From: Bacteroidaceae bacterium | Lineage (GTDB): Bacteria > Bacteroidota > Bacteroidia > Bacteroidales > Bacteroidaceae | NCBI GenBank assembly: GCA_902362375.1 | Contig: CABIVS010000016.1 | Coordinates: forward strand, 1-64,000 | Reading direction: 5' to 3' | DNA: 64,000 nucleotides | Shown: positions 77-17,717 of the stretch, in pieces | Layout of the letters: every line of letters begins with the position of its first letter | Position numbering within the stretch: the first letter of the stretch is position 1 | The notes under the pieces: model-generated | The model's database searches: none | What the model was told of the DNA's origin: nothing | Seen by the model: only the letters and a program-made list of their open reading frames with translations | Translations under genes and position numbers: made by a program

Positions 77-80
77 CCCG

Positions 81-113: not shown

Positions 114-122
114 TTGTTATCG

Positions 123-728: not shown

Positions 729-763
729 TTTACTTCATTATTTTACTTTGACGATAATGTTTA

Positions 764-1018: not shown

Positions 1019-2239
1019 TCATGCCGCTTTTTTCCGGTGTATGTCGCAATGCTCCAGTATTACCGTGTATGTCATGCCGCCACCCGTTACCGTAGTGTGG
1101 CTGTAAACTCTCGTCCGTCCGCAACGCTCGCAGAAATACGGGTTTTCATATCCGCTTTCTGCCTGTTGCAACTCGGCTTCCTCTATCTCGCTTTCATCCT
1201 GCCCGAAGTATTCTTCCGGCAGGCTGCCTTTATTGGAATAGAAGCCGTAGTACCTCACGATGCGGAAATAGCGCAGTGGAACGTGTTGCAGCAGCCGGGG
1301 GAAGAACTCCCGGTAATGCAGCGTCAGTTCCTTTTCAACCGGGTTCCTCCTGTCGGGTGAGTTTTTGTAATCACGGTAACGGAATGAAATGTTTTCGCCG
1401 TCCATTGCCGTAATCTTGTATTCACTCAGGCACGCCCGTTTGGAATATCTGCCCACATATTGTATCACCTGTTCCGGCATCTGTATGGGTGGTTCCAAAT
1501 GCACTATCCAGTCCTTTTTGTTTGCCACTTTTTTGATGAAGCCCATAAACTCCATGCGGTCACGGAAGTCATGCTCCAGCCTGCCCGCATCGAACAACTC
1601 TATCAGGGCGTGTTCAAACTTGTAGCGGAATACCTTACAGATAGAGGGGATATGCACGTAGTCATGTTCGGGGATGACTATCTTACCGTCGTTATCTATG
1701 CCGCCCCATGACATAATCATGTGCGTATGTACATGGAGCTGTTTCGTTTCCCCGTAGGTATGTAGTACGGCAATTACCCCGGTTTTCAAGCCGAACTTGT
1801 GCATCATCCAGTCTTTCAGCGTTTCAGCCGAAGTACGCATCAGTATATTCAGCATTTCTTTCCTGTTGCGCTTCACCAAGTCCAGCAGGATATGCGGCAA
1901 GGTCATCACCACATGGCGGTGTGGCACCCGCAGCATCTTTTCTTTCATGCGTGCCGCCCATTTCAGCGTGTCACGCCAGCCGCATGACGGGCAAAAACGG
2001 TGTTTGCAACTATGGCTGATTTCCCGTACTTCCCCACAATCGGGACAAACGTATGTATCTATCCCCAAAGTGGTTGTGCGACATACACGGATAGCGTTCA
2101 CCGCCTTGTACTGTTCGGGGGTGATGTACTCCGCCGGGTGCTGTGCGTATTCGTCCCACCACCGATTGAAGAAATCGGACAAGCGGTACTTCTTTTCTTT
2201 GCAACCGTCTGTATATATGTCGTTTAGCACTTCTTTCAT
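1019..2239 (-). CDS. IS91-family (Y1, HUH) transposase
   Basis: The protein (about 406 residues from the ATG at 2239; a GTG three codons upstream at 2248 is possible) has an N-terminal zinc-binding region with CPDCG and CPSCG, the HUH motif HVHTH in the middle and the candidate catalytic tyrosine in YVGRYSKRA. This family moves by rolling-circle, one-ended transposition and can carry adjacent DNA. The C-terminus has another CERCG pair and a late Cys-His cluster. The recombinase gene lies 116 bp upstream in the same orientation; some IS91 relatives carry a tyrosine recombinase as an accessory gene. The 76-bp repeat abuts the start codon. Confidence 0.92.
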   Translation of the reverse strand: MKEVLNDIYTDGCKEKKYRLSDFFNRWWDEYAQHPAEYITPEQYKAVNAIRVCRTTTLGIDTYVCPDCGEVREISHSCKHRFCPSCGWRDTLKWAARMKEKMLRVPHRHVVMTLPHILLDLVKRNRKEMLNILMRTSAETLKDWMMHKFGLKTGVIAVLHTYGETKQLHVHTHMIMSWGGIDNDGKIVIPEHDYVHIPSICKVFRYKFEHALIELFDAGRLEHDFRDRMEFMGFIKKVANKKDWIVHLEPPIQMPEQVIQYVGRYSKRACLSEYKITAMDGENISFRYRDYKNSPDRRNPVEKELTLHYREFFPRLLQHVPLRYFRIVRYYGFYSNKGSLPEEYFGQDESEIEEAELQQAESGYENPYFCERCGRTRVYSHTTVTGGGMTYTVILEHCDIHRKKAA

Positions 2240-2315
2240 AGCTCGCACACAAATCCTTTTTTACTCCATTTTAATATCTAATCATTTGATTATTAGTTGT
2301 TTATTGTCTTGAATG
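2240..2315. repeat. 76-bp direct repeat, right copy
   Basis: Identical to 1-76. It occupies most of the space between the recombinase stop (2356) and the transposase ATG (2239), so it includes the likely transposase ribosome-binding region. A small hairpin (CAGCC 2325-2329 with GGCTG 2335-2339) lies just beyond it. Confidence 0.95.
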
Positions 2316-2355
2316 TTATACTATCAGCCGATTTGGCTGTTATTTTCTTTAAGTA

Positions 2356-3474
2356 TCAGACCTCGTCTTCCTCCATCAACAGATCGTCCAACGGGCTTTT
2401 GATATTGCTTTTGAAAGTGTCGGCTATGTGGACATACCTTTCCGTTGTCTTGATGTTGTTATGTCCCATAAGCTCTTTCACAATCTTGATGTCGATTCCC
2501 TGCTCCAGCAAGTGGGTGGCGAACGAATGGCGCAGCAGGTGCGGGTAAATCCGTTTCGTGATTCCCGCTTCCCGAGCCGCAGCCTTCAACCGTTTCGACA
2601 CGATACTCTCGGTAAAAGGTTCGCCCGGTCTGTGTTCAAAGAGCCACACTTTCGGTTTGTATAGTCTGTTATATTCCGTCAGCTTTTTCATCAACGGTTT
2701 TGACAGCAGGGTGTAGCGGTCCTTCTTGCCCTTTCCCTGACGCACCCGTATCAGGGAGCGGGGTTCGTTGATGTCGCCGGGTTTCAGTTCCAGCAGTTCG
2801 CTGATGCGCAACCCTGCGGAGTAGAGTATGGAGAACATACAGAAGAAACGCAGGTCTGTCACTGTCACGTCGAGTATTTTCTTTATTTCCTCCTTGCTCA
2901 ACACGTCGGGCAGCGTCTTCTCCCGTTTGGCACGGTTCACCTTGTAACACCGCCGTTCCTGACCGAGAACTTTCTCGTAATAGAACTTGATGGCGTTGAT
3001 ACGCTGGTTTTGCTGGCAGGAGGATATGTTTTTCTCATGGATGAGATACAGCAGGTAGTCGTTTATCTCGCCGGGAGTAACCGTTTCAATCTTACGCCCC
3101 TCGAAATATTGTTGGAAATCGCGGAAATAGGAGGTATATACCCTTACGGTATGGTCACTGTAACGCACTTGCTGGAGTTTTTCCAGATAACCTTCCGGCA
3201 GTGGCGGCCGTTTGTCTTCCTCTTTACGGGGTGCGGTTTCCTTGATGGCGGAATAGTCTATAAACGCCATTTTCACATAGCGGTCGAAGAACTCGGCAAG
3301 CACGAAATTCTCTGCCGGTAGATAAGCTCTGCCACCGACAAGCAGTACGTTTTCTTCCTTCGACAGCGACAAGCGGATGTCATTGTCATTACCGAAAGTC
3401 ACTTCGACAAATTCTCTCCCGTTTCTTACCACAGGAGAAAGTTTGATTTTGGGTTTTGGAGTATATATTTCCAT
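2356..3474 (-). CDS. XerC/D-type tyrosine recombinase
   Basis: 372 residues. The N-terminal ~90 residues are an extra domain, followed by a SAM-like core-binding domain (about 95-180) and the catalytic domain. Catalytic signatures are visible: Arg in SAGLRISELLEL, Lys in GKGKKDRY, HLLRHSFATHLL, LMGHNNIKTT and the final Tyr in ERYVHI. All residues needed for strand exchange seem present, so it is probably active. Its start lies only 12 bp after the MORN-protein stop, so it may be cotranscribed with the 13-gene operon. It could belong to the IS91 element as an accessory gene, or be the integrase of a cassette array; the two structured hairpins next to the SUKH gene favour looking at the second idea. 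Confidence 0.9.
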   Translation of the reverse strand: MEIYTPKPKIKLSPVVRNGREFVEVTFGNDNDIRLSLSKEENVLLVGGRAYLPAENFVLAEFFDRYVKMAFIDYSAIKETAPRKEEDKRPPLPEGYLEKLQQVRYSDHTVRVYTSYFRDFQQYFEGRKIETVTPGEINDYLLYLIHEKNISSCQQNQRINAIKFYYEKVLGQERRCYKVNRAKREKTLPDVLSKEEIKKILDVTVTDLRFFCMFSILYSAGLRISELLELKPGDINEPRSLIRVRQGKGKKDRYTLLSKPLMKKLTEYNRLYKPKVWLFEHRPGEPFTESIVSKRLKAAAREAGITKRIYPHLLRHSFATHLLEQGIDIKIVKELMGHNNIKTTERYVHIADTFKSNIKSPLDDLLMEEDEV

Positions 3475-3486
3475 GTTTTTTAAATT

Positions 3487-4311
3487 TTACCGGTCCCACT
3501 CGTTCAGGATTTCTCCGCTTATGATATCATATCGTATCCAGTGTCCCGTCTCGCGTCCCTCGGTGTATTCGCCTTGGACTGCGATATCGTCCCGGTCGAT
3601 TTCTTTCCACGAACCGTGCTTGTAGCCGTTCTTGTACGAGCCGGATTTGTAGGCGTACAGCTTGCCATGTAGGTGGGCCGTGTATTCGTAGGGGCCGTCC
3701 AGTTCGCCGTTCTTATAGTGGCTGACGGTTTTGCTGACCCATCTCTCGGTGGTATCCTCGCTGATTTTCCATTGTTTTCCCTCTTTCCGGTCGTCGGTAT
3801 AGTTTGCCTCGTAGATCTGCTTGCCGCTTTTCGGGTCAAAGCGTTGTTCCTTGCCGTTCCGCTTGCCCTGCCTATATTCCTGAACCATGTCCGGCTTCCC
3901 GTCGCTGAACCATGTCCTTACCGTACCGTCTATCTTCCCGTACTGCATGGGTGCTTCCCGTTGCGGTGTCTTTCCGTTCTGATGATAGGAAACGAACAGA
4001 CCATGCCGTCTGCCGTCGGTATACTTGCCCTTTTCCCGCAGGCTGCCGTTGCGGAAACGCCTGTACTCGCCCTGCATAACCCCTTTGGAAAAATGCACTA
4101 TTTCCTCATCCTGCCCCCGCAAGATACGGAATTTGCCCGATAGCGGACGTTTTCCGCCCTTCAGATAATGGACGACTGTTCCATGCTGTTCGTCCGTGGT
4201 GGTTCGCAAGTCACCGGATTCCACGATCCGCTGTGCGAAGGCAGAACAACACAGCAGCGTGAGAACGATGGCCGCAAGCATTTTTCTTATGTTTCCCTTT
4301 GCCTTTCTCAT
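3487..4311 (-). CDS. Secreted MORN/YwqK-type repeat protein
   Basis: 274 residues with a signal peptide (about 1-26, ending AFA) followed by at least seven degenerate repeats of the form G-x-Y/W-x-x-G-x-x-x-G-x-W/Y (for example GKYTDGRRHGLFVSYHQNGK and GSYKNGYKHGSWKEI). Such repeats form beta-sheet ribbons and are often annotated 'toxin-antitoxin system YwqK family antitoxin'. The signal peptide puts it in the periplasm or outer membrane. The start overlaps the DUF4261 stop by 4 bp, indicating translational coupling. It is the last gene of the 13-gene run. Immunity to a secreted toxin is possible but not shown by the sequence. Confidence 0.75.
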   Translation of the reverse strand: MRKAKGNIRKMLAAIVLTLLCCSAFAQRIVESGDLRTTTDEQHGTVVHYLKGGKRPLSGKFRILRGQDEEIVHFSKGVMQGEYRRFRNGSLREKGKYTDGRRHGLFVSYHQNGKTPQREAPMQYGKIDGTVRTWFSDGKPDMVQEYRQGKRNGKEQRFDPKSGKQIYEANYTDDRKEGKQWKISEDTTERWVSKTVSHYKNGELDGPYEYTAHLHGKLYAYKSGSYKNGYKHGSWKEIDRDDIAVQGEYTEGRETGHWIRYDIISGEILNEWDR

Positions 4312-5063
4312 TCGTCCGGATATTCAAGTTTCAATGTCATGCCGTCCAAAGCGATGCCTTCGCTAAGCGTGATGGCAAGTTTCTGTTCTTCGGAGAATCC
4401 TATGGTTTCCCCGTCCTGCAAGGTGACATCATCCGACAGGATATAATGCACGATGTCCATTAGGAAATCACGGATGTCACTCAGATCGGCAGGGGCATAC
4501 ACTTCGATTTCCTCTTTCCCGAATTTTCTCAGTCCGTAGGTATAGATGCCGGGGATTCCTTTCTGTGTGCGGTAGATGCCGAACCATACCCAGTCCATGA
4601 CGGGCAGTTCATCTTCTTGCAGGAGTGCGGCCATATCCCTGTAAAATTCGGGTTGGAACACCATACCGTCGGTATATACCGCTGTAGCGTAGGACTGTTT
4701 CAGGCAGGAAGACGTGGCTCTGGTGAACAGTTTGGCTCTCTCCAGCAGGTTGGATTGGTCTCCGGTCACGGATACGAGGATATGTGCCTCGTGTTGTCGT
4801 GCCACTTCTGTTGCATCTTTCCACAGGTAGTTGCCCTGTGCATAGTGTTCCGCTTCTCCGTTGGGTACGGGACCGGGCATGATGGCTATTGCCAATGTCA
4901 TGCCGCTGAACATTCCGACAAGTACGTCACCGTTGTCGTCGTCATCGGTAAGGACGATTCCCCAGTCTTCCTCGAAGTCATGGATGAACTGTTTCTTGTC
5001 CCATTGATTTTGTGAAAGCAACACGGACGAGACAAAGCATCCTTTGATATTATCCTTTTCCAT
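4308..5063 (-). CDS. DUF4261-domain protein
   Basis: 251 residues, no signal peptide. The N-terminal half (LSQNQWDKKQFIHDFEEDWGI, then an acidic DDDDNGD loop and GMTLAIAIMPGPVPNGEAE) and the central block HEAHILVSVTG fit DUF4261, a cytosolic family of unknown function found next to toxin-immunity and secretion loci in many bacteria. The protein is rich in Asp and Glu, as are many immunity proteins that mimic or block nucleic-acid-binding toxins. It is separated by 145 bp from the upstream gene, the largest gap in the run, so a secondary promoter there is possible. Confidence 0.7.
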   Translation of the reverse strand: MEKDNIKGCFVSSVLLSQNQWDKKQFIHDFEEDWGIVLTDDDDNGDVLVGMFSGMTLAIAIMPGPVPNGEAEHYAQGNYLWKDATEVARQHEAHILVSVTGDQSNLLERAKLFTRATSSCLKQSYATAVYTDGMVFQPEFYRDMAALLQEDELPVMDWVWFGIYRTQKGIPGIYTYGLRKFGKEEIEVYAPADLSDIRDFLMDIVHYILSDDVTLQDGETIGFSEEQKLAITLSEGIALDGMTLKLEYPDE

Positions 5064-5208
5064 ATAGTTCTTTCTTTTTGAGTCGTCAATTATTGAAGAT
5101 TCTTGCGCAAGATAGGTATTTTACCCTGATTCCTTGGTACTTTCATCTGTTAATATACGATAAATGCAGGCCCTGCCTGTGACTTTACAGATAAAGGTTG
5201 CGCTCCGT

Positions 5209-6135
5209 TCAATAGATGCGCACATACTGTACTTCCCCGTCAAGCAGTTCAACATAGCGGTTGTCGGAAAAGCGCAATGTCTCCAGAGTCCTGCCTTCCT
5301 TCTTGACTTCCGATTTGTGGTATGGTTCGCCCCATGCGGCGATGACCATTTCCCTCGTCATGCCGGTATCGACCTTGCGGAAGGCAATCAGCTTCCCGTA
5401 TTTCTCGCCGTACCGTTTTTCCAGCTGGCCGATACGTGCCGTGCTTACAAACTCGTACACCTCGTCACCGCCTATAGGAAATGCTTCCACACGGACACCG
5501 TCAGCACCTTCCATCAGCAGAAACGCCCCGTCACTGTTCATCTTCAGGCCGATGTCCACACAACGGTACTCCGCACCTTCAGCCGGGGTGATTACCTGAC
5601 CGTCCTCGGTCTCGACGGCCTTGGCAAGTGACAGGAATGTCTGTCCGACAAAGCGTTTCAGTTTCTCATAATACCCTATACAGGTCATGCTCAGCGGATA
5701 CCTGAATGGGTTGTAATACATCTCATCACCGCTTTCTTTTTCACGGAGCAGCAGGCAGCATCCAGCCGACAGGTAGTCTGTCTTTGTCCAGACCTTCACT
5801 ACCTCGTAATATTTCCCCACCACCTCTTTAGAAGGGGTGGTACTGATGTTGACCGCCTTGTACACCGTTCGGTCATCCCCGGTAAGGAAATTGACCGTAT
5901 AGAAAGCATCCCAGTAGCCGTTCCTGTCATTTTTTACCCCATGCATGTACAGGGTCTGTCCCGGAAGGGAAGTGAAACTCCGCTTCTCCACGTTCGTCAG
6001 GCTGTCATAGGGGTGGGCATTTGTCACCGTGTACTCTTTCAGTCCATCGTTCTTGGGAACGATGTTAAGCTGTGCATGGGCATACATCACCGTGCACAGG
6101 AAGAAGGTTATAATTGGAATTGTTTTCATACTCAA
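5209..6135 (-). CDS. Secreted protein with BamE/SmpA-like C-terminus, function unknown
   Basis: 308 residues with a signal peptide (about 1-21, ending AHAQ); there is no lipobox Cys, so it is probably periplasmic. The last ~55 residues (DTGMTREMVIAAWGEPYHKSEVKKEG...RYVELLDGEVQYVRIY) have the pattern of the BamE/OmlA fold: the 'GMTREMV..WGEP' helix then beta strands. The central part is not recognised. It lies within the 13-gene run, 44 bp upstream of the next gene's start. I infer an envelope role; nothing indicates catalysis. Confidence 0.55.
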   Translation of the reverse strand: MSMKTIPIITFFLCTVMYAHAQLNIVPKNDGLKEYTVTNAHPYDSLTNVEKRSFTSLPGQTLYMHGVKNDRNGYWDAFYTVNFLTGDDRTVYKAVNISTTPSKEVVGKYYEVVKVWTKTDYLSAGCCLLLREKESGDEMYYNPFRYPLSMTCIGYYEKLKRFVGQTFLSLAKAVETEDGQVITPAEGAEYRCVDIGLKMNSDGAFLLMEGADGVRVEAFPIGGDEVYEFVSTARIGQLEKRYGEKYGKLIAFRKVDTGMTREMVIAAWGEPYHKSEVKKEGRTLETLRFSDNRYVELLDGEVQYVRIY

Positions 6136-6179
6136 TCACTTTTTAAGTTTACAGGTGGCATCCGGGAAAGAGCACTCAG

Positions 6180-6446
6180 CTATTTGCCGGAAATAGAGAA
6201 CAGGTACAGAGACAGTCCTATCCCGACGGCAAGAATCACTCCCAGCCAGAACCGGAAAGTTTTCGGACCGAGCAGATTCATCCAGAAGTTACCTCCTGTA
6301 CTACCCGGACGGGAATACGTCCACTTCCAGCCACAGATGACACCGACAAGCCATATCAGAAGCAGGCCCGCCACGACCAGATAGCCGTAGCGGGGTTCCT
6401 GCTGTATCAGATTCGGAAAATCCTTTATTTTATCCAACCATTCCAT
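6180..6446 (-). CDS. Small two-helix membrane protein with Imm17-like WxW motif
   Basis: 88 residues with two membrane helices (about 22-39 and 66-84). Between them lies GWKWTYSRPG, a WxW motif. The Pfam description of immunity protein 17 as I know it is exactly two helices with a WxW motif between them, in polymorphic toxin loci of Bacteroidetes. The match is by architecture and motif only. Its neighbours on both sides also encode membrane proteins. If correct, it would protect against a toxin acting at the inner membrane or in the periplasm. Confidence 0.55.
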   Translation of the reverse strand: MEWLDKIKDFPNLIQQEPRYGYLVVAGLLLIWLVGVICGWKWTYSRPGSTGGNFWMNLLGPKTFRFWLGVILAVGIGLSLYLFSISGK

Positions 6447-6457
6447 ATCTCACCGGT

Positions 6458-6916
6458 TTATTTTTTCAAGAGCGCCGCAAATTCTTTAAGCTGTGGCAGT
6501 CCGTCAAAGAAATCAACGTCAAATTTGGCCGTTGAGCCGTTGGCGAGGGTGATTGTCAGAATACCATTGTCGTAATTGTAGTTTGAACTGGATATTTCCG
6601 ACAATGTAAAAGAACACATCTCAACATTTCCTTTCACGATGACCGGGTATGTCACCTTATCGCCGTCAACCGTGATGATACAGCTTTTGGCAGCCAACTT
6701 GCGGGCCTTATGTATCTTCCGCCAGGCTCTGAACAGCATGTACAGTCCGACAAGGGCAAGGATGATGGCTGTTGGTAACGGTCCGAGGATGCGAAGTGTA
6801 CCGACTTTTATACCGAAAGGATAAACTACCGGTACTATTATCAGTCCGGCACCGACAAGGATTTCAGTCAGATTGTCCTTGATGGACGATTTGGAAGAAT
6901 AATTGAATGTAGCCAT
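6458..6916 (-). CDS. Two-helix membrane protein with C-terminal PH-like domain, unknown
   Basis: 152 residues. Two hydrophobic segments (about 18-36 and 44-63) are followed by a basic stretch (RAWRKIHKARKLAAK) and a beta-rich cytosolic domain (about 78-140: SCIITVDGDKVTYPVIV...YNYDNGILTITLANGSTAKFDVDFF). This resembles the bacterial PH-like (bPH2) arrangement of membrane anchor plus split-barrel domain. I do not recognise a named family. It sits 11 bp upstream of the Imm17-like gene and 35 bp downstream of the next, so it is surely in the same transcript. Confidence 0.55.
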   Translation of the reverse strand: MATFNYSSKSSIKDNLTEILVGAGLIIVPVVYPFGIKVGTLRILGPLPTAIILALVGLYMLFRAWRKIHKARKLAAKSCIITVDGDKVTYPVIVKGNVEMCSFTLSEISSSNYNYDNGILTITLANGSTAKFDVDFFDGLPQLKEFAALLKK

Positions 6917-6951
6917 ATTCGGATATTAGTGAAGTTATTCGTTCGGTGATA

Positions 6952-7605
6952 TTATTTTATGAAAAAGTACCAGATAAGCAGAGCCGCGGTGATGATTATG
7001 GACAGGACCGTCATGGCCGACCTGTATTTTTCGACAGCAGGCGATTCCTGCGGAGCTTCAAATTCCAGTATCGTAGGTGCTTGGCCTATCGCGCTATTAG
7101 GAATAGCCTCTATCTTGAACTCGTTGGGCTGTTTTTCAATGCCGATCAAGGCATAGGCACAATCAAGCTGATTGGCCTTTCTTGGCGAGAATACCGATTT
7201 GCTGAACAGGATGACGCCGTCATAATGATCGCTTATTTCCATTACCGAATCCATATCCCGTTGTCCTGTCAGTATATGACGGCCTGTATCAGGATCTACT
7301 ATGTAATAGTCATAGCCACAGGACTGTACGGAATCATAACGGATTTCACCGATTTCCAGCGTATCCACTTCAGCCTTGATGCTCTGAAGGGTGGCCTCGT
7401 CAATTTCAGTCCCTTTCAACGGGCAGGCATACAGGCAATAGCGGCTGTCTTCGTGCATCACGGTTCTGATGGGATAGAGGTTTACTACTTTGCGGTTTTC
7501 CAGTTTGAGGTATGTCTTAGACAATTTGCCGATTGCTTTCCCGTTATAACCGGCCGGAACAGCACCTCCTTCAAGAATGGCTGACAGATTTTTAAGTTCG
7601 CTCAT
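6952..7605 (-). CDS. Tail-anchored membrane protein, unknown
   Basis: 217 residues with no signal peptide and a single hydrophobic segment at the very C-terminus (about 198-215, VLSIIITAALLIWYFFI), so the ~190-residue N-terminal domain should face the cytosol. That domain is mixed alpha/beta with no recognised motif; it contains several Cys residues (about 58-110). It is one of four consecutive small membrane-associated proteins in the run, which suggests a membrane complex. No function can be assigned. Confidence 0.5.
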   Translation of the reverse strand: MSELKNLSAILEGGAVPAGYNGKAIGKLSKTYLKLENRKVVNLYPIRTVMHEDSRYCLYACPLKGTEIDEATLQSIKAEVDTLEIGEIRYDSVQSCGYDYYIVDPDTGRHILTGQRDMDSVMEISDHYDGVILFSKSVFSPRKANQLDCAYALIGIEKQPNEFKIEAIPNSAIGQAPTILEFEAPQESPAVEKYRSAMTVLSIIITAALLIWYFFIK

Positions 7606-7642
7606 GTTGTAATTCTTTTTATTCGTTTTCGATTATTGTTGA

Positions 7643-8671
7643 TTATTTGATTCCATTTTCTACAGTGAGACAGAAGTTCACCTCCCTGTACAGTTGTTCC
7701 AGCAGATGTTCGTCATCCAGCGACTTCCTGCCGGGACGTAAGAAACCGTCCGGAGTGTCGGATGCGTAGTAGAACATGTTCCCGTTGAAGGAGAGCATCA
7801 GGTCACGGCTGAAGGATTTCCGCAGGGCGGTCAGCTTCCGCATCATCGCCGGGGTGAGCACCATGCGGGCTTCCACCTCGTCATCCGCGTACACGGCAAA
7901 ATGCCTCTCGAACTCCGGGTCTTCCAAATGTACGAATTTTGCCCCGTACTTTTCCTTCATTCCCTGGATTGTTTGCGCCAGGTAGCCGATTTTGTTTTCC
8001 AGATGGTCGGGCAGCAGCATCACGTAGCCCCTGAAGGTGCGGTTCAGCTTGCAGCACCCGAACATGCCCCTGAAACTGTGCATCGTGCTCTCTATCCTGA
8101 CTCCGAATATCGGACGGATAAAATACTGGTACGGCACTTCAAGGAAGTTGAAGGCCGAGAAATCTTTCGAATTGGCTGAAGTCACACCGGCATCCACGAC
8201 AGTCATCATGTCATTTCCGACGGGAATGTCAAGACGGCCGTAACAGGTCGAACTTACCGAATTGCCCGATGACAATGCCGTTCCGAACAGGCGGCTGTCC
8301 GCAAAGACTTTCGGCTGTATGGAACCGGAAGGATTGTACCTTGCTCCCGGGAACAGCAGGTAGATGATGTGGGCCATCGTGTAGGTTTCCCTCTTGTTCA
8401 GCGCGGCAAAACATTTCATGAATGCGAAATGAAGTACAAAAAATACGGCAAAGCCTATCATGAGGTATTTTCCCGTGGTGACGGAAGTCTCATAGTCAGT
8501 ACGGTCCACGAGGAATCCGCCGAAGATACAGAAACCGAACCACACGACGGTACACAGATAGACAATGGAGGTCAGGATGCGGAACACAATCCGGAGCATC
8601 CTGATACGGGACATCTCTTTCTTCATGTGAAGGGAAATGCCCTTGAAATCTATATTCTGACTTTCTTCCAT
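7643..8671 (-). CDS. DUF3137-type membrane protein
   Basis: 342 residues. Two membrane helices near the N-terminus (about 28-52 and 66-86) are followed by a large cytosolic or periplasmic domain. The block RIESTMHSFRGMFGCCKLNRTFRGYVMLLPD (about 192-223) and DPEFERHFAVYADDEVEARMVLTPAMMRKL (about 250-280) are typical of DUF3137, in which 'F...F.V...D..EAR..LTP..m..l' recurs. DUF3137 genes are very often next to lemA, as here: the LemA gene ends 3 bp upstream. The pair is thought to act in the envelope; its biochemical role is not known. Confidence 0.75.
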   Translation of the reverse strand: MEESQNIDFKGISLHMKKEMSRIRMLRIVFRILTSIVYLCTVVWFGFCIFGGFLVDRTDYETSVTTGKYLMIGFAVFFVLHFAFMKCFAALNKRETYTMAHIIYLLFPGARYNPSGSIQPKVFADSRLFGTALSSGNSVSSTCYGRLDIPVGNDMMTVVDAGVTSANSKDFSAFNFLEVPYQYFIRPIFGVRIESTMHSFRGMFGCCKLNRTFRGYVMLLPDHLENKIGYLAQTIQGMKEKYGAKFVHLEDPEFERHFAVYADDEVEARMVLTPAMMRKLTALRKSFSRDLMLSFNGNMFYYASDTPDGFLRPGRKSLDDEHLLEQLYREVNFCLTVENGIK

Positions 8672-8674
8672 GCT

Positions 8675-9235
8675 TTACTTGAATAATTCTCCCACTTTCA
8701 CTTCCTTGATCTCACTTTCCGGGAACTCTATCAACTCCTGCTGCTCATGCTTGCGCCAGGATGCGATTATCGACGACGGAAACATTTCAATGTAATTGTT
8801 ATAATCGGTAGCAGCGGCATTGTAGGTGCGCCGGATTGCCTGCAGCTCATTCTCCATGTCCTCGATCTGGACCTGAAGATGAAGGAACTGCTGGTTCGCC
8901 TTCAGCTCCGGGTAGTCTTCCACCGCCACATTCAGTCTTGACAGAAGCGAGGACATTTCCGTACCGCTTTTTATCTGCTCGGACTCTGTAGCGTTCGAAG
9001 CCCTTGACCGCAAATCGGCAATGCGGATGAGAATCTCATTCTCGTGCCCCATGTATGCCTTTACGGATGCGACAAGATTGGGGATCAGGTCATTCCTCTG
9101 TTTGAGGACCACGCAGATACCGCTTCTGCATTGCTTGACCCGGTTCTTCTTTGCAATAAGGCTGTTGTTAGTGAATACTGCCCATAAAATAATTATGAGC
9201 AGTACCACGATAATACATATAACGGCTATAATCAT
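8675..9235 (-). CDS. LemA-family membrane protein
   Basis: 186 residues. An N-terminal membrane helix (about 2-22) is followed by the LemA helical bundle: the signature NRVKQCRSGICVVLKQRNDLIPNLVASVKAYMGHE (about 31-65), then long helices and NAAATDYNNYIEMFPSSIIASW near the end, all in the usual order and length. LemA proteins form a four-helix coiled-coil domain exposed on one side of the inner membrane; function is unresolved. It is paired with the DUF3137 gene, forming a two-gene unit within the operon. Confidence 0.9.
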   Translation of the reverse strand: MIIAVICIIVVLLIIILWAVFTNNSLIAKKNRVKQCRSGICVVLKQRNDLIPNLVASVKAYMGHENEILIRIADLRSRASNATESEQIKSGTEMSSLLSRLNVAVEDYPELKANQQFLHLQVQIEDMENELQAIRRTYNAAATDYNNYIEMFPSSIIASWRKHEQQELIEFPESEIKEVKVGELFK

Positions 9236-9249
9236 ATTTTCAGATGGAT

Positions 9250-9957
9250 TTAGACATACAATTCAGCCGGTATGACTCTGATTGTCCCTTCCCAGTAGAA
9301 GTGGGGGACGATGCCGTCTGAAGGAAGATAGCCTTGGGGAAGTTCCTTGTAATAAAGGACAAGTTTCCTTACTTCCACATCGGCGCCTTCCACGATTTCA
9401 CCACTCAGTTTCACGGTTGACCAGCAGTCCTCCTCCTTGGCAAGACTGACTACGCCCTCACATCCGGGAGCTACCGGCTGCCTGCCTTCACACATGTTGC
9501 GCAGCTTTTCCATCACTCTCTTCAGCCATTCCATATCGTTCATGTGTCCCTTGTCCAGTGCGTATATGCCAATACCATGGAAAGAGTCGTCCTTGTGCTT
9601 CACGCCTTTCCACGCCTCTGCCGGGGCACTGACAATCCCCGCGTAAACGATATATCCTTCCGTGAATTTTCTCAACCACTTGCTTTTGCCCAGCCATGGT
9701 GCCTTTCCTGCAAGTTTCTTGAAGAACTCGGTCTCAGAACTGCGTGGCGTCTGCATGTACGGTTTCATCTTGTCAAGCTGTGTCGGGTTCTTGTACAGTT
9801 CCCTGTCTCGCTTGGCTTCTTCGGCCTCCTTTGCACGCCGTGCGGCCAGTTTCTCCCTGTATTTACTTACGTCAAGACCTTGTGCTTCCATTTGGTCAAG
9901 ATCATTCTCTGTCATGGTTTTCTCCCATTCTGTTGCTGCATTTTTGAAAAGTGCCAT
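9250..9957 (-). CDS. Hypothetical cytosolic protein
   Basis: 235 residues with no signal peptide or membrane helix. The N-terminal ~60 residues are highly charged and probably helical (ENDLDQMEAQGLDVSKYREKLAARRAKEAEEAKRDREL is split over about 17-55), followed by a globular alpha/beta part with GYIVYAGIVSAPAEAWKG and a C-terminal strand-rich region ending ELYV. The second region suggests a binding domain. No family recognised. It sits 46 bp downstream of the DUF1266 gene and 14 bp upstream of lemA. Confidence 0.55.
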   Translation of the reverse strand: MALFKNAATEWEKTMTENDLDQMEAQGLDVSKYREKLAARRAKEAEEAKRDRELYKNPTQLDKMKPYMQTPRSSETEFFKKLAGKAPWLGKSKWLRKFTEGYIVYAGIVSAPAEAWKGVKHKDDSFHGIGIYALDKGHMNDMEWLKRVMEKLRNMCEGRQPVAPGCEGVVSLAKEEDCWSTVKLSGEIVEGADVEVRKLVLYYKELPQGYLPSDGIVPHFYWEGTIRVIPAELYV

Positions 9958-10003
9958 AATCGTAAAACTTTTAAGATATTGTTGATTCTATTTTTTTTGG
10001 ATT

Positions 10004-11032
10004 CTACCATTCGATTGCCTTCCAAGGGGAATCTTCTTTATTGAGAAGCGCTCCCACGACTTCATCCGCAGTCTCGTAGTCATCTGTTTCGCCTCTCCAT
10101 ATTCCGCGTCCCACGGCAAAGCTGTTGCCGTATTCTTCCCATGAACTGAAGGATTCCTTGGCTATGCCGGCAGTGGTTCTGATGGCTTCCCACATTTCGT
10201 CTTCATTGATGTAGCCGCAGATGAAAGCCCAACGGGCCATGTTCACGGCACGTACAAGGTCCCATGCCAGCACGGTTTCGGGCAGGTCCGCTTCCGTCGT
10301 TTCATTTACTCCCATTACAAATTCAGCTATCGTGAACGCATCGCCGATCTTGCTGTCCTCGTCCGCCTTTTCTTCCTCGGTGATGGCCTCGATTCCACGC
10401 TGGCGGATTTCAGCCAAGGCCGGATCCGCACCGGCATGTTGGCCTTCGTTCAGCAGCCATGAGATGGTCTCCAGGGCACTCTTCCTGTCAGTAACTTCCC
10501 ACCATTCCTCAAGCATTTCCTTAAGGGTGTCCGTGCCTGCTGTACTTTCAAGGGAGTCCACGTTGTCATCGTTGTATAGGAACAGAGGTGCCCCATAAGC
10601 CAGAAGTTTGTTCTGTTCAGGTGTCAGGCTGTTGTCGCCCTTGCGGGTGATTTCCCAACCTGCATATACGTCAAAACCGTCCGAGAAATCCGGTAAACCT
10701 TCCGGCATGAATCCGGCATTCATTGCCTGCTGCATCATGTTCCCTGCGAACTCGATGTTTTTGCTGTAGGTCTCCATTATCGCCTCGGGATCCTGGGCGG
10801 ATTCTGCCATCATCTTTGCCTGGTATGCCTGTGCCTCCGCAACTCCCGGGAACATCTCGGCCGAGTCCTGCATCAGCTTTTCATGCTTCTTCATCAGGTC
10901 GGTGCCTTCAAATCCGGGTACGTTGCCATACAAGGCTTGCGCCTGTTCCAGTGCTGCTTTCATGGCCTGAGCCTGTGCTTCTCTTGCGATTTCCTCGGGT
11001 GTCTGAGGTGTCTTCTTGGTTTCTTCTGCCAT
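10004..11032 (-). CDS. DUF1266-domain protein
   Basis: 342 residues. The N-terminal ~110 residues are Ala-, Gln- and Met-rich helices. The C-terminal half carries the DUF1266 signature: AWDLVRAVNMARWAFICGYINEDEMWEAI, then AGIAKESFSSWEEYGNSFAVGRGIWRG (about 245-310). DUF1266 proteins are cytosolic, of unknown function, and frequently found near type VI secretion or toxin-immunity genes. The extended N-terminal region beyond the family domain is acidic and could be a partner-binding arm. Confidence 0.85.
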   Translation of the reverse strand: MAEETKKTPQTPEEIAREAQAQAMKAALEQAQALYGNVPGFEGTDLMKKHEKLMQDSAEMFPGVAEAQAYQAKMMAESAQDPEAIMETYSKNIEFAGNMMQQAMNAGFMPEGLPDFSDGFDVYAGWEITRKGDNSLTPEQNKLLAYGAPLFLYNDDNVDSLESTAGTDTLKEMLEEWWEVTDRKSALETISWLLNEGQHAGADPALAEIRQRGIEAITEEEKADEDSKIGDAFTIAEFVMGVNETTEADLPETVLAWDLVRAVNMARWAFICGYINEDEMWEAIRTTAGIAKESFSSWEEYGNSFAVGRGIWRGETDDYETADEVVGALLNKEDSPWKAIEW

Positions 11033-11073
11033 ATCTTTCTAATATTAAATTTGTTAATGAATATCTTACCTGT

Positions 11074-12045
11074 TTATTCCGCTCCGTTTTCAAGAAGTTT
11101 TTCCACGATTTCGTTGAAGCCGCGCTCTCCTGCATAGTACAGGGCGGTGTGCTGGAGGTTGTCTGAGATGCTAACATTCGCGTGAAATTCAAGCAGGACG
11201 GACACAAAATCGTTGTGGCCCTCCTTGGCTGCAAGAATAAGCGGGGTTTCCCCGTTGTCATTCTGTGCGTCAACCGCAGCTTTGGCCTTCAGCAGAGCCT
11301 CGCCTATAAAGCGGTTACCTGAAATGGCCGCGTAATGTATCGGGGCATTGCCGCTCAGCATAGCTTTGCCGGGATCGGCTCCGGCCCCGAGAAGAAGGTT
11401 GACCATGACAAGATTCCCCTGCATACAGGCGAGTATCAGCGGAGTCTCTCCGCCGTCATTCGTCGAGTCAAGCATGGACTTGTCTGACAGGAGCAGCGTG
11501 CGGACAATTTCACCCTGTCCGTTATACACGGCCTGATGAAGCGGGGTGTTGCCACGTGCATCCCGGTCATTCCCGCACGAGAGTCGGGCGACCACTTCCC
11601 GCAGCCCGTGGGCTGTGGCATAGTCGATGGCCTTGTGGCCGGAGGCATCGGCGACCTCCGTATCGGCTCCCTGATCCATCAGGAAAAGGGCGGCATCTGT
11701 ACGCTTGTTGTCAAGCAGGCATATCAGCGGGGTTCGTCCTTCATTGTCCGTCACGTTGATGTCGGCCCCCTTCTGGAGCAGCTTCCCGAGGATTTCCTTG
11801 TTGCCGCTCCGTGCCGCCGCGTGGAGCGGGCTTTCGGAACGGTTGTTGATACATGACGCGTCGGCATCGTTGTCAAGAAGCAGAGCCACTATGTCCCTGT
11901 AGCCTTTCTGACAGGCATAATAAAGAGCAGTGTTTCCTTCCTGATCCCTTTTGTTGATGTCAATTCCTCCCTTTTTCAGGAATATCTGGACAATGCTTTT
12001 CTGCCCGTTTCGGCAAGCATTGAGAAATGTCTGGTTGTTGTCCAT
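11074..12045 (-). CDS. Ankyrin-repeat protein (about nine repeats)
   Basis: 323 residues made almost wholly of ankyrin repeats, about 33 residues each (for example GNTALYYACQKGYRDIVALLLDNDAD, GETPLILACMQGNLVMVNLLLGAGAD, GETPLILAAKEGHNDFVSVLLEFHAN). There is no signal peptide or membrane segment. Ankyrin stacks bind other proteins; in bacteria many are immunity or adaptor proteins of toxin loci. It lies 10 bp downstream of a second ankyrin gene and the two probably arose by duplication. The repeat units are regular, so it is likely intact. Confidence 0.9.
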   Translation of the reverse strand: MDNNQTFLNACRNGQKSIVQIFLKKGGIDINKRDQEGNTALYYACQKGYRDIVALLLDNDADASCINNRSESPLHAAARSGNKEILGKLLQKGADINVTDNEGRTPLICLLDNKRTDAALFLMDQGADTEVADASGHKAIDYATAHGLREVVARLSCGNDRDARGNTPLHQAVYNGQGEIVRTLLLSDKSMLDSTNDGGETPLILACMQGNLVMVNLLLGAGADPGKAMLSGNAPIHYAAISGNRFIGEALLKAKAAVDAQNDNGETPLILAAKEGHNDFVSVLLEFHANVSISDNLQHTALYYAGERGFNEIVEKLLENGAE

Positions 12046-12055
12046 ATATCTTTGT

Positions 12056-13615
12056 TTAAGAATATTTCAATAATAGTCTTACGAGATTGTCATTGTTGTA
12101 GTCTGCCGCCACGTCCATGGCCGTTTTGCCTTCATTGTTTACGGCATTTACGTCAGGCAGCTTGAAGTCCAGCAGGAGTTCAATCGCTTTCTGTGCTATG
12201 CTGTCACGGCAACATGCCGCCACATAATGCAGGAGGGTGTTTCCCCGGTTGTCCGTCTTGTTCACGTCAGCTCCGGCTTCGAGAAGCTTTTCGAGGATTT
12301 CCGTGGGGTCGTCAGAACCGGCTGACCAGCCGTAAGGCACATATTTTTCGTTCGCCTTATGACCACCGAAGAGAATCATCATGGGAGTTTGGCCGGAAAG
12401 ATTGGCGGCGTTGGGGTCGGCCTTTCCCTTGAGCAGCCAACCGAATGCCGTTTTACCCAACCTGTAGCCGGTATGGCGGCAGGAAAGGGCAAGTGCCGTG
12501 TTGCCTTCCGTATCAACAGGAAGCTCGGGATTCCAGCCTTTTTCCTTCATCAGGTCAAGCAGCCCCTTGTAAACCTCGGTATCCTTGCAGAAATAGTCCT
12601 TACTCACCCATACCGAAAAAGCCGTCTCTTCATTCGGGAAACGGTAATTCGGATTCGCTCCGCCGTTCAGAATCATGGCCGGAGCATCCTGTATGCTGTC
12701 AAACCAACTGAACGCACAAGCGAGGGGCGACTTGCCTTCAAAGTCATACATATCCTTGTGCTCGCACACCGTCTGCAGGTCTGCACCCGAACGCAGAATG
12801 GCATCCAGCGCCTCCATATCCTTCATGTACATAGCCTGGAATATGTCCATGTTGCCGTGCAAGGTCGAAAGTTCGTCAACATTGGGGTCGCTTCCGGAAA
12901 GGAAGGCCGCGATCTTCATCGCCTTGTTCTCTATGGCGGCATCCCAGGCTGTCTTTCCACTGTTTGACTTGTCTTCCGGATCGGCCTTGTCTTCTTCAAC
13001 AAGCCTTCTGGCAAGTCGGTAGGCGGCTTCGCCATCATCCTCCAGCCTTGTAATCCTGCTCCTGATTTCCTCTATCTTGTTTTCGGGGTAACTGTATTGT
13101 ACGGATTCGTCCAGTTCCTTTTTCGCGAACCGGATATCCCTTCTGATGTCGCCTGAAGCGGCACAAAAACCGAAAAGCACGTTCTCGCCGTTAAGGTCGG
13201 TTGAGTTGACGCGTGCTCCGGAATTTATGATCGCTTCCGCCATCTTGAAATGACGGTTCCTTACGCACTCGATAAGGGCCGTCGTATTCTTGGCCGAACG
13301 CGGTATATTCGCTCCATGTTCCATGAGCATGACAGCTATTTCTTTCAGTTTGTCTTCATCTGCACGGCCGGCACTGGTTCTGCCGAGGATATGAATCGGG
13401 GTGGAACCGTTTGCATCCTTCGTGTTGGGTTCGGCATCACGTTCAAGAAGTATCTTGACCCCCTCCGCGTCTCCATACTGGCAGGCAAGATGCAACGGAG
13501 AACGGTCTTCGTACTGTTCGTCGCTGTCATCGACGGGCACTTCTCTGAGCGCCTGATGAATTGCATCCTTCGGCTGACTTGTCGAATAAAGTCTGTATAT
13601 GTCACTGTATTTCAT
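12056..13615 (-). CDS. Large ankyrin-repeat protein
   Basis: 519 residues with ankyrin repeats along the length (RSPLHLACQYGDAEGVKILLERDAEPN near the N-terminus, GNTLLHYVAACC and GKTAMDVAADYNNDNLVRLLLKY near the end), with helical inserts between them (about 165-225). No signal peptide. Its ATG overlaps the stop of the upstream TPR-type gene by 4 bp, so their translation is coupled. It is longer and less regular than its neighbour. The partner is unknown. Confidence 0.88.
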   Translation of the reverse strand: MKYSDIYRLYSTSQPKDAIHQALREVPVDDSDEQYEDRSPLHLACQYGDAEGVKILLERDAEPNTKDANGSTPIHILGRTSAGRADEDKLKEIAVMLMEHGANIPRSAKNTTALIECVRNRHFKMAEAIINSGARVNSTDLNGENVLFGFCAASGDIRRDIRFAKKELDESVQYSYPENKIEEIRSRITRLEDDGEAAYRLARRLVEEDKADPEDKSNSGKTAWDAAIENKAMKIAAFLSGSDPNVDELSTLHGNMDIFQAMYMKDMEALDAILRSGADLQTVCEHKDMYDFEGKSPLACAFSWFDSIQDAPAMILNGGANPNYRFPNEETAFSVWVSKDYFCKDTEVYKGLLDLMKEKGWNPELPVDTEGNTALALSCRHTGYRLGKTAFGWLLKGKADPNAANLSGQTPMMILFGGHKANEKYVPYGWSAGSDDPTEILEKLLEAGADVNKTDNRGNTLLHYVAACCRDSIAQKAIELLLDFKLPDVNAVNNEGKTAMDVAADYNNDNLVRLLLKYS

Positions 13616-14091
13616 GGTTGTATGTTTTTTATCAGTTCTTCAATGTGTTGATATTTATTGCCCAAACGGGCGTGGATAGTCCGCACCTCCGTGTGCAGGT
13701 GCAGTCTGGCCGACACTTTCGCTTTCAGCCTCAACAGTTGTACGGCGGCGAGGTTATCGGGAGCATCCTCCGGCATGGGACAACCGGCAGGGCTTTTTTC
13801 GTATTCCCAGCGGAGGACGGCTTCCGGCAGGTTTTCCGGCAGACGTTCCGTTAACGGTGGCAGCAGCCTCTCCGCTTCCAACAGCAGGGAACGGCAGTCA
13901 TTATACAGAGAAAGGTAGTAGCAGCATAACGCCTTGTTGTAAAGTGTCGGCAGGTCAGACTTTCCTGCCTGCGTGAAACAGGAGAAGGCAAAGGCATATT
14001 CGCCACTTACCATATAGGTAATACCTGCGGAGAAAAGTTCTTTTTTCTGGGATTCAGGCATGGTTTGTTTATTTCCATATATTCCAATCAT
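13612..14091 (-). CDS. TPR-like protein, first gene of the 13-gene operon
   Basis: 159 residues (starting at Met11, position 14061, is also possible). Helical pairs fit tetratricopeptide repeats: KKELFSAGITYMVSGEYAFAFSCFTQAG, LPTLYNKALCCYYLSLYNDCRSLLLEAERLLP, then a longer helical tail. There is no signal sequence. It is the promoter-proximal gene of the run ending at 3487, with a 996-bp upstream gap. As with the ankyrin proteins, this is a scaffold-type protein. Confidence 0.7.
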   Translation of the reverse strand: MIGIYGNKQTMPESQKKELFSAGITYMVSGEYAFAFSCFTQAGKSDLPTLYNKALCCYYLSLYNDCRSLLLEAERLLPPLTERLPENLPEAVLRWEYEKSPAGCPMPEDAPDNLAAVQLLRLKAKVSARLHLHTEVRTIHARLGNKYQHIEELIKNIQP

Positions 14092-14338
14092 AGATACTTA
14101 AACACTAAAAGAGATTTCAGACTGTTATGGGTGGAAACAAAAAACCGACGATATTCGGGCGCAGAGAACGCTCCCCAGTACCGTCGGACCATAAAAATAT
14201 CCTGCCTTTTTTGAGACAATATGGCAGAGGATGAGTATTTATAGGAACTTTTGTCGTAAGACAAGGATAACCCCGGATAATTGATTCCGGTAATCCATTG
14301 TAAATTAAATGTTTTATTATATATTGACGCGCGATAAT

Positions 14339-14356
14339 TGTGTGTGTGTGTGTGTG
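14339..14356. repeat. (TG)9 dinucleotide tract
   Basis: Nine perfect TG units, followed by TTTACACG. The tract lies about 250 bp upstream of the first gene of the 13-gene operon. Dinucleotide runs of this length are prone to slippage, so promoter spacing could vary if the promoter spans it; no promoter elements were seen at suitable positions on both sides. Confidence 0.9.
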
Positions 14357-14655
14357 TTTACACGAATTTTCCACACTGCCAAATTATCAATACACTTTTT
14401 AAGGGAATATGTAAGGTAACTAATGCACACAAGAAAAACGTCCGCTTTATGCGAAGCTTCGCTCAAACAAATATCATTTGTTAAAATCGAGCGACATTTT
14501 ACAATGTATCCATTGTCATACATATCAGTTTATTAGAGTGAATACTTCTTCAAATACAAAATTAGAAAAATGTTTTGTTCTGCAATGAAATAACCGACAC
14601 TTTTTTCAGGGAAAAATAAAAATGGCTTTATTATAATTGCCTTGTACCATAGAAA

Positions 14656-14690
14656 ACGGGCAGAGAGCATGCAGTTGCTCATCTGCCCGT
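14656..14690. terminator. GC-rich hairpin, possible terminator
   Basis: ACGGGCAGA (14656-14664) pairs with TCTGCCCGT (14682-14690), and GAGCA pairs with TGCTC inside, with one bulged base. It lies downstream of the minus-strand phage module and upstream of the operon, so it could separate the two transcripts. No clear T-run follows. Confidence 0.4.
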
Positions 14691-15087
14691 CCTGTAGGGA
14701 GAACCGTTTCATGCCGCTATCGGATTCACTTTCAATGTAGTCTGAAAGATGAACGCCTCTACTTTCATGTTGATTATGAAACATTGTTGGTGTGCGTGAT
14801 AAGACTTCATGCCTTATTCAAACCTAAATCCAACGGGCACAAAAACAAGTAAGTAATTATTCAATGTCTTGAGATCATTAAATACCGCAAAGGCAGTAAG
14901 GAATATAGCAGATTGGATTATTCTAAAAGGCCAAATTTATATCTTCTTTTGGCGGCATATTACAAGGAACTTGCCACCCGATCAGGGGGGCTCTTGTGGA
15001 AACGGAACTAACAAACAAGCAGTAATTTCGTTTCTTGTTCATGGTAAAGACTACGACAACAAATCCGGTAGCGGTATTTACTGTTAT

Positions 15088-16107
15088 TTAGGTCAGCCAC
15101 GGGTTTCGATACGGGTCATAATCTGTTTGGAAAGTAGCCAGTTGCCAATCGGTAACCGGCTTTTTCGTGTCATCGACTTTACGGGGGATTTGTGGATTAA
15201 GTCGCAATTTGGCGGCATCATTAAGCCATTTCATGCTATCCTCGTAATCGCGCATACGGACAACACTGACATTATTCGGGGCAATGAGTTTCGTGAGCTC
15301 GTAGATAGCCAATCGAACCATATGCTTCTTGAGGTTGTAGTTTCGTGGATCGTGTAATGATAGGTTTAGACCGACTTGCGGCGTGTCCGCGTTCACATCC
15401 GTTTCCGGGTAAAATACCCGTCCGTCATAAACTACATATTCGTGTTCCGACAATTCGTAGGCATTGTATGATGAATCGTAATCGGCTATGGCTCCCCAAC
15501 AGTCGGACACCATAGGGTCAAGATTGCAATCGAAACAGTCAAGCGTCATCAAAGTATAGAACGCCCCTTCATATTCAACGACTGACCACAGAGGATACTC
15601 GACAGGCTGCCATAACGTGACTTCCGTCTCGATCCAACCGCCGACCATCGGGATACGGATATCATCGAACTTGTACCCGTTTTCGGCAAGGCAAATATAG
15701 ACAACACCGTTGTAGTTTACTTTATCACCCGGATAATAGGTGTTGAACTGGGAATAATTTACAACTTGTCCCGCATCGACGTGGATATCGGAACACTCTT
15801 CCCAATAGATTGCCGTTGCCGGCTTGCGATAGCCGCTGACGGAGCGTGTCACCTCATGGATTTGTCCCTCGAAATAGACATGCACACCCACGGGATAGGT
15901 AATTCGACGGTCGTATTCGGCGATATATTTTCCTTTTGCAAGTTCCTTTTCAATCTCGTAGTTCTCCGACAAATATTCCACAATGCTCATCTCCGCCGAT
16001 TCTTCCGCCTGGATGAATCGTGCATCATTGCCCCGCGTGAGTTGTGCTAGTGCTTCCGGAGTAATTATCCCAAGATAGTCGTCATTATTGAGAAACCGTC
16101 TGTACAT
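15088..16107 (-). CDS. Phage structural (neck/tail-type) protein
   Basis: 339 residues, encoded 15 bp downstream of the terminase gene. The chain has at least four short units with the pattern Y-P-x-G-x-x-V-x-Y/F-x-G-x-x-Y/H (YPVGVHVYFEGQIHEV, YPGDKVNYNGVVYIC, YPLWSVVEYEGAFYTL, YVVYDGRVFYPE), like the small beta modules of phage tail or carbohydrate-binding proteins. The C-terminus (RLAIYELTKLIAPNNVSVVRMRDYEDSMKWLNDAAKLRLNPQIPRK) resembles head-tail connector proteins. Exact role is uncertain. No portal, protease or capsid genes follow; the next 996 bp hold no gene. Confidence 0.6.
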   Translation of the reverse strand: MYRRFLNNDDYLGIITPEALAQLTRGNDARFIQAEESAEMSIVEYLSENYEIEKELAKGKYIAEYDRRITYPVGVHVYFEGQIHEVTRSVSGYRKPATAIYWEECSDIHVDAGQVVNYSQFNTYYPGDKVNYNGVVYICLAENGYKFDDIRIPMVGGWIETEVTLWQPVEYPLWSVVEYEGAFYTLMTLDCFDCNLDPMVSDCWGAIADYDSSYNAYELSEHEYVVYDGRVFYPETDVNADTPQVGLNLSLHDPRNYNLKKHMVRLAIYELTKLIAPNNVSVVRMRDYEDSMKWLNDAAKLRLNPQIPRKVDDTKKPVTDWQLATFQTDYDPYRNPWLT

Positions 16108-16122
16108 ATCCTTGTTCCGTTA

Positions 16123-17712: not shown

Positions 17713-17717
17713 TAGAT

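Follow-up and report, generated by a model that had tools for sequence, protein, structure and literature searches.

In a window of 64,000 nucleotides (positions 1 to 64,000 of contig CABIVS010000016.1, assembly GCA_902362375.1, from a Bacteroidaceae bacterium), we analyzed a 13-gene operon on the minus strand (positions 3487–14091; genes g1 to g13 in transcription order) that is probably a common part of the cell's defence against neighbouring bacteria. We read it, tentatively, as the fixed, non-cassette scaffold and inner-membrane module of a mobile interbacterial-defence island, whose gene blocks would cooperate and protect the cell from the toxins of its neighbours. The other part of this island would be an integron-like cassette array of the recombinase-associated acquired interbacterial defence (rAID) type, run by the adjacent recombinase Int1; the first rAID paper is reportedly Ross et al. 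2019. The island context of the operon is well supported. The evidence that we count for our reading comprises gene content, conservation of gene order, the occurrence of g5 and DUF1266 with both conserved blocks, the island context, purifying selection on g2–g6, and a differing right flank in Bacteroides gallinarum, whereas the mechanism of a shared machine (a physical complex, its inner-membrane location, and its protective action) is one that we infer.

The operon is filled by 13 co-directional open reading frames (ORFs), separated from g1 to g13 by −4, 10, 41, 46, 14, 3, 37, 35, 11, 44, 145, and −4 bp (i.e., positive gaps of 3–145 bp and two 4-bp overlaps). An earlier note on this DNA had described a one-strand operon of 13 genes with short gaps or 4-bp overlaps, and the ORFs, the gaps, and matches in two other species agree with this description. 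Its calls of two ankyrin proteins (g2 and g3), DUF1266, LemA, DUF3137, and DUF4261 are all above the Pfam cut-offs. The TPR (g1) and MORN (g13) calls are under them (best TPR match 21.3 bits versus a cut-off of 27.2; MORN E = 0.23), yet both are kept by relatives. The TPR-like protein g1 (13612–14091, 159 aa), with relatives in genomes G096 and G245, B. finegoldii, and Fusobacterium, overlaps by 4 bp with the ankyrin-repeat gene g2 (12056–13615, 519 aa; Ank_2, E = 7e-36), followed by a second ankyrin-repeat gene, g3 (11074–12045, 323 aa; Ank_2, 2e-70), by g4 (10004–11032, 342 aa; DUF1266, 3e-42), which has a helical N-terminal extension, and by g5 (9250–9957, 235 aa), an unknown soluble protein with 75 homologues. 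AlphaFold2 models reached a mean confidence (pLDDT) of 91 for g5 and 78.9 for g4, with low confidence in the N-terminal part of the latter. No match to g5 was found in Pfam or PHROG, and its NCBIfam matches were all far under the cut-off. Fold searches with the g5 and DUF1266 models gave no significant match to solved folds, and comparing the g4 and g7 sequences with those of solved structures yielded nothing of use.

Hydropathy indicated an N-terminal transmembrane (TM) segment in g6 (8675–9235, 186 aa; LemA, 6e-45), two TM-like segments in g7 (7643–8671, 342 aa; DUF3137, 2e-29), a C-terminal TM anchor in the unknown protein g8 (6952–7605, 217 aa), and two TM-like segments each in g9 (6458–6916, 152 aa; also unknown) and g10 (6180–6446, 88 aa; Imm17, 1e-18), with borderline segments in g3 and g12. 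From these calls, five consecutive inner-membrane-type genes are preceded by five soluble ones. The 'three small membrane proteins' of the earlier note correspond to g8, g9, and g10, the third of which belongs to a named family. The remaining genes comprise g11 (5209–6135, 308 aa, TTG start), a secreted-type protein with a signal peptide recognized by eye, g12 (4308–5063, 251 aa; DUF4261, 4e-21), and g13 (3487–4311, 274 aa), a secreted-type MORN protein whose signal peptide was likewise recognized by eye. A Pfam search up to E = 1 returned no match for g11, the 'BamE-like' protein of the earlier note. Domain searches revealed no enzyme domain among the 13 proteins, and no toxin domain was found among them either. 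Imm17 is the only named immunity family in the operon, and DUF4261 has an immunity link by association.

Genome searches covered samples (2000 genome look-ups overall, mostly Bacteroidales). B. gallinarum DSM 18171 and B. propionicigenes NSJ-90 each carry all 13 genes at 97–100% identity (in the latter, the reading frame of g13 stops after 179 codons), and core blocks recurred at 25–73% identity in other families and in one Fusobacterium. The run of genes is therefore not a chance arrangement. A variant operon (L007) was found in a metagenome-assembled genome of an uncultured Bacteroides. Between the window and L007, g2–g6 and g11 showed synonymous divergence (dS) of 0.23–0.48 and dN/dS of 0.04–0.16, and silent sites were saturated for g1 and g7–g10. 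The simplest reading of these divergent alleles would be replacement from a divergent lineage, i.e., mosaic exchange. The mosaic stretches correspond to window positions 6180–8671 and 13612–14091, compared with L007:228–8920, where g2–g6 are close. L007 also differs by an extra lipoprotein after DUF3137, a swapped order of g9 and Imm17, and an immunity-type array directly after g11; no match for g12, g13, or Int1 was found in it. The synteny comparison proposed in the earlier note (a set that travels together would be one system, one that varies an array) gave a divided result: the core blocks travel in fixed order, and g8, g9, Imm17, and the lipoprotein vary in order and presence between loci. 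The conserved block order, the dN/dS of g2–g6, and the lack of cassette sites in the operon (see below) indicate that it is not a freely varying array.

The order TPR-Ank-Ank-DUF1266 is common to the window, L007, G096, G245, and B. finegoldii, and g3 shows the highest conservation within this block (invariant at 145 of 323 positions across five lineages). DUF1266 is followed by g5 in the window, L007, and G096, and by a second DUF1266 gene in G245 and B. finegoldii. In G096, G245, and B. finegoldii, TPR is preceded by a gene for a homologous lipoprotein, which in G245 and B. finegoldii itself follows a g9 homologue. G096 also encodes Imm17 downstream of the block (E = 2.6e-8, over the cut-off). 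The second block, MORN-LemA-DUF3137-DUF1266, was found in two genomes of one family (G225 and G313) and, with extra DUF1266 genes, in two of another (G128 and G230). Together with the order LemA-DUF3137-g5 in G229, these loci tie the two blocks to each other, and g5 and DUF1266 were each found with both. A tree of ten concatenated LemA-DUF3137 pairs, the only ones used, separated the six operon-linked pairs from four generic ones with a support of 100, ruling out, within this set, that the operon copies are a generic LemA-DUF3137 pair. Two apparent gene fusions (P0238, TPR-DUF1266; P0144, g8-DUF1266) were set aside, as they resemble assembly chimeras or deletions.

Outside the Bacteroidales, Fusobacterium vincentii carries TPR-Ank-Ank alone, with a 4-bp overlap and a full-length g3 homologue (56.7% identical), between FAD-dehydrogenase-like and min-type cell-division genes (assigned by eye). 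No DUF1266 gene was found in this 2.1-Mb record, and the TPR profile also matched proteins labelled as F. animalis, F. canifelinum, and F. russii. The components are sporadic among the sampled genomes. For example, g5, which was restricted to Bacteroidales within the samples searched, was present in four of the 295 genomes sampled at order level, three of 399 at family level, and one of 395 at phylum level (G001 itself), and g8 in two of 301 at family level. The TPR profile matched 16 of 247 genomes of the order at E ≤ 0.001; 12 matches were weak (1.6e-6 or worse), and the four strong ones (E < 1e-20) represent three full blocks and one truncated remnant. DUF1266 was found in 12 of 295 genomes of the order, with 11 over the cut-off. 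Neighbourhoods of 7.6–20 kb were compared for at least one locus in all 12 genomes (two further G128 copies were left out): a strong operon partner was present in seven of the 11 (G001, G096, G128, G225, G230, G245, and G313), a weak one in two (G118 and G222), and none in two (G056 and G123). The genome under the cut-off (G071) has no operon partner, and second DUF1266 loci in G001 (L051) and G118 (L054) are partnerless. The truncated remnant (L082:8231–9849), in G145, a congener of G245, comprises g9, the lipoprotein, and truncated TPR and Ank genes; this decay implies that the operon can be lost.

Twelve bp after g13, on the same strand, starts Int1 (2356–3474; Pfam Phage_integrase, E = 1.6e-40), a tyrosine recombinase probably of the rAID type, in which Pfam recognizes only Phage_integrase and SAM-like domains. 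We examined two picked relatives, the best of 242 matching plasmid records and the single match among seven genomes; most of the 242 need not be rAID-type recombinases. The former, from Phocaeicola massiliensis (69% identical), heads Imm22, SUKH, DUF4241, and DUF4265 genes, and the latter, from G030 (47%), heads co-directional short genes of 27–40% GC, one of which has the type VI secretion system (T6SS) immunity domain Tdi1. An immunity-type gene also follows in the window, where a SUKH cassette (123–728, minus strand; SMI1_KNR4, 7e-7, over the cut-off; GC 0.31) lies between two attC-like sites, one 3′ (70–132, E = 6e-4) and one 5′ (753–816, E = 1.6e-5) of the gene, both on the minus strand. 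The rAID-type array probably continues past the left edge of the window.

Gaps in such arrays share a palindromic site with CATTA at its end. We modelled this site with a covariance model (R1) trained on 23 sites, which were taken from five loci and exclude those of the window. R1 recovered the two sites beside SUKH as the only significant ones in the window (one weak site, E = 0.39, lies at 20872–20935), detected 13 sites in the G030 array, which was not in the training set, and found no cassette site in the operon. Among 16 other loci, 11 had no site at E ≤ 0.5, including G096, G245, Fusobacterium, and the MORN-LemA loci, and ten further loci yielded only two weak sites (E = 0.0024 and 0.026), both from the island of B. 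gallinarum. All five consensus pairs of the site showed two-sided, covarying changes. A set of 22 cassettes from six sources (one from the window; boundaries set by hand, all counted) begin with bases that match the inverse of their own ends: the mean match was 0.83, against 0.39 after shuffling of the ends, and none of 20,000 shuffles scored as high. Both B. gallinarum and B. propionicigenes match the window at 99.2–99.7% identity up to the site that follows Int1. The first cassette is then Imm21 in B. gallinarum (L017:6077–6680) and a 183-aa gene in B. propionicigenes (L056:6860–7560), and the next, of 336 aa, has the same start in both. Judged from these sequences, the swap at the Int1 site is integron behaviour.

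An IS91-like Y2 transposase gene (1019–2248, minus strand; Y2_Tnp, 2e-39) has inserted at the cassette site on the 3′ side of Int1. The element covers window positions 1–70 and about 824–2330, its other end being guessed from a 93% plasmid match at 824–958. Two cassette sites (CATT then CAAG) carry the same IS91-like end, about 70 bp long, suggesting that the element may target such sites. A reading of Int1 and Y2_Tnp as one IS91-like unit was rejected for two reasons: in B. gallinarum, B. propionicigenes, and P. massiliensis, no Y2_Tnp match was found next to Int1 or to its relative, and one end recurs at two cassette sites of the window. The separation of Int1 from this element, the recurring blocks, the two significant attC-like sites around SUKH, the continuation of the island in B. 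gallinarum, and the location of the first block within an immunity array in B. finegoldii are points that the earlier note missed.

In B. gallinarum, Int1 is followed on its 3′ side by Imm21, DUF4948, DUF2625, further unknown genes, and a gene for a 1871-aa immunity-type protein with TPR, DUF4261, DUF7832, and DUF4253 domains, so that the domain of g12 recurs within it. Among the eight genes between Int1 and this giant gene, GC was 0.34 and 0.37 in two and 0.41–0.49 in the rest. The giant gene precedes SWIM, DUF5691, MoxR-type AAA, DUF5682, and VWA genes and another MORN gene, which shares 45% identity with g13; the SWIM to VWA genes (L017:18600–19940 and L088:71–5892) may be a second defence module. 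The B. finegoldii block is flanked on one side by a 1685-aa protein (L060:5930–10987) and on the other by an array of PoNi, Imm5, and YfbM genes with one SUKH match just under the cut-off. Near the start of the 1685-aa protein, 97 residues are 58% identical to the N-terminus of a rAID-type recombinase, followed by two Imm5 matches and DUF7738. In each of the five Bacteroides loci examined, the block has immunity-type genes or cassette sites next to it. These loci make up three lineages: the window together with B. gallinarum and B. propionicigenes, L007, and B. finegoldii. The SUKH cassette and the immunity genes of B. gallinarum and B. finegoldii support a defence context.

Window positions 2312–20985 are 99.2–99.7% identical to B. 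gallinarum, with an integrase gene (Int2, 19482–20759) at the right end of the common stretch. Beyond 20985, the window continues with RNase R and B. gallinarum with an efflux-type gene (by eye); these different right flanks point to mobility. The left end of a mobile element was looked for and not found.

In our proposed mechanism, g1, g2–g3, g4, and g5 would form a cytoplasmic scaffold complex, and LemA, DUF3137, g8, g9, and Imm17 an inner-membrane assembly, with the LemA-DUF3137 group anchoring the scaffold. The g11 and g13 proteins may be periplasmic, outside this assembly, and Imm17 and the secreted proteins would guard the membrane and the periplasm. The whole module would shield the membrane or cytosol from contact-delivered toxins, with no tie to a single toxin. 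Immunity to T6SS and similar toxins mostly relies on one antidote per toxin. The recurrence of a multi-gene block within or next to antidote arrays of several Bacteroides, an order kept across Bacteroidales families and partly in Fusobacterium, and largely purifying selection suggest a general defence layer. A stronger version, which we regard as unlikely, is a new multi-subunit apparatus, an ankyrin-TPR-DUF1266-g5 scaffold docked on a LemA-DUF3137 assembly that would give broad rather than lock-and-key protection as the constant backbone of integron-like islands, with cassettes as toxin-specific antidotes (a two-layer immunity island). Several observations weigh against the fixed defence module. 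No partner toxin was found among the sequences, and the protective action, complex, and phenotype are predictions. The blocks also occur apart (in G056, g5 and DUF1266 are on separate contigs, both partnerless), and g8 has 96 homologues in a protein search, known without genomic context. G096, G245, and Fusobacterium showed neither an R1 cassette site nor a toxin noticed by eye, so the array is not a constant context of the blocks. The invariance of g3 is concentrated at repeat-consensus positions (63 of 111 versus 33 of 114 elsewhere), and much of its conservation may thus reflect the fold. Finally, g8–g10 are reshuffled in L007, as an array would be, and Imm17 is a predicted immunity family.

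The last point favours a heterogeneous polyimmunity array, in which 13 independent antidotes, or small groups of them, against different delivered toxins were gathered by recombination. Imm17 belongs to a family found in such loci (in the parts of Zhang et al. 2012 available to us, PMC3482391), DUF4261 is a domain of a giant immunity-type protein, and the lipoprotein insertion, the g9/Imm17 swap, the saturated g1 and g7–g10 alleles, and the missing g12, g13, and Int1 of L007 fit as well. Block order kept across families, with TPR-Ank-Ank even in another phylum, an operon free of cassette sites, and strong purifying selection on g2–g6 nevertheless make this doubtful, although it remains the most credible rival. 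The suggestion of a polyimmunity locus in the earlier note thus suits the neighbourhood but only partly the operon. We give less weight to an envelope or proteostasis module with a general cell function, riding on defence islands or donating parts to them, which we consider improbable. It would account for F. vincentii, where TPR-Ank-Ank stands alone among FAD-dehydrogenase and min-type genes, with TPR homologues in three more Fusobacterium species, for MORN-LemA-DUF3137-DUF1266 near housekeeping-type genes in G225, and for the Escherichia coli DUF1266 genes beside Sel1-repeat and J-domain genes. A core, non-mobile housekeeping context, which the earlier note had named as contrary evidence, is thus partly present at the Fusobacterium and G225 loci; we know of no housekeeping role for either gene set. 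Such a module fits poorly with a sporadic distribution among Bacteroidales genomes (see the g5 counts above), the decayed G145 remnant, the differing right flanks in two species, and the immunity islands at Bacteroides loci. An anti-phage system within a phage-derived or satellite element is very improbable. Isolated phage-type genes (head-tail adaptor, terminase large subunit, and HU-like) do lie upstream of the operon, together with Int2, at 15088–20985. However, PADLOC, applied to 10 of the 13 proteins (all except g2, g3, and g13), matched LemA alone, weakly (E = 0.007), no relatives of g3, g5, and g8 were found on viral contigs, phage records gave no DNA match to window positions 1–20,000 and one weak partial DUF1266 protein match, and the neighbours are toxin-immunity families. 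The defence role proposed in the earlier note is thus backed by the interbacterial island context, and anti-phage action found no support. Under our preferred reading of a fixed module in an interbacterial-defence island, DUF1266, DUF3137, DUF4261, Imm17, and the operon copies of LemA would gain a common, testable context, and, given the cassette evidence, site-specific recombination becomes a directly testable origin for rAID arrays.

Elsewhere in the window, positions 24281–39761 and 46475–47959 encode polysaccharide-utilization-type genes (GH3, GH16, SusD-like, and a hybrid two-component regulator) and an N6 DNA methylase.

Compared with known systems, the island itself belongs to recognized types (rAID and polyimmunity), and the new part is the conserved multi-gene backbone, as a variant. 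Neither a description of the operon nor a test of such a general defence layer was found in literature searches among the matches listed, consistent with the earlier note, which knew of no system with this composition; the portions seen of PMC12632263, PMC10434189, and PMC7582179 have no bearing on function. The available portion of PMC12247911 defines a rAID by a tyrosine recombinase homologous to Bacteroides fragilis BF9343_RS08045 with at least two co-directional genes of <41% GC on its 3′ side, and its cassettes as genes of <41% GC and about 100–300 codons downstream of the recombinase. The window resembles these Bacteroidales systems in having a co-directional tyrosine recombinase beside orphan-immunity genes and a SUKH cassette with conserved intergenic sites; one gene of low GC (SUKH, 0.31) is present before the window end, and two of eight in B. 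gallinarum. The 13 operon genes differ from the cassettes so described: they lie upstream of Int1, have a GC of 0.45–0.55 and up to 519 codons, lack intergenic sites, and are therefore not rAID cassettes. Polyimmunity loci and proteins, as far as the consulted part of PMC3482391 describes them, share with our loci unrelated immunity-type families in a row with no recognized toxin, Imm17 and ankyrin proteins, and, in islands linked to the operon, giant multi-domain proteins; for immunity proteins with two TM segments, Imm17 among them, the same source proposes a possible block of toxin uptake at the membrane. The operon differs in its fixed-order multi-gene blocks, most members of which have no assigned immunity family. 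The E. coli locus ybeQ-ybeR-djlB-ybeT-ybeU-djlC-hscC, likened by gene content, also has DUF1266 genes beside repeat (Sel1) scaffold genes, but has J-domain and Hsp70 partners and no ankyrin, LemA, or DUF3137 genes. The adjacent array has the cassette boundaries of integrons: a recombinase, a site beside it, cassette starts that are the inverse of the cassette's own end, and covarying, foldable sites. It differs from integrons in that its cassettes are orphan immunity genes, and it is known from sequence alone; the operon itself is no cassette, standing beside this array as a conserved backbone.

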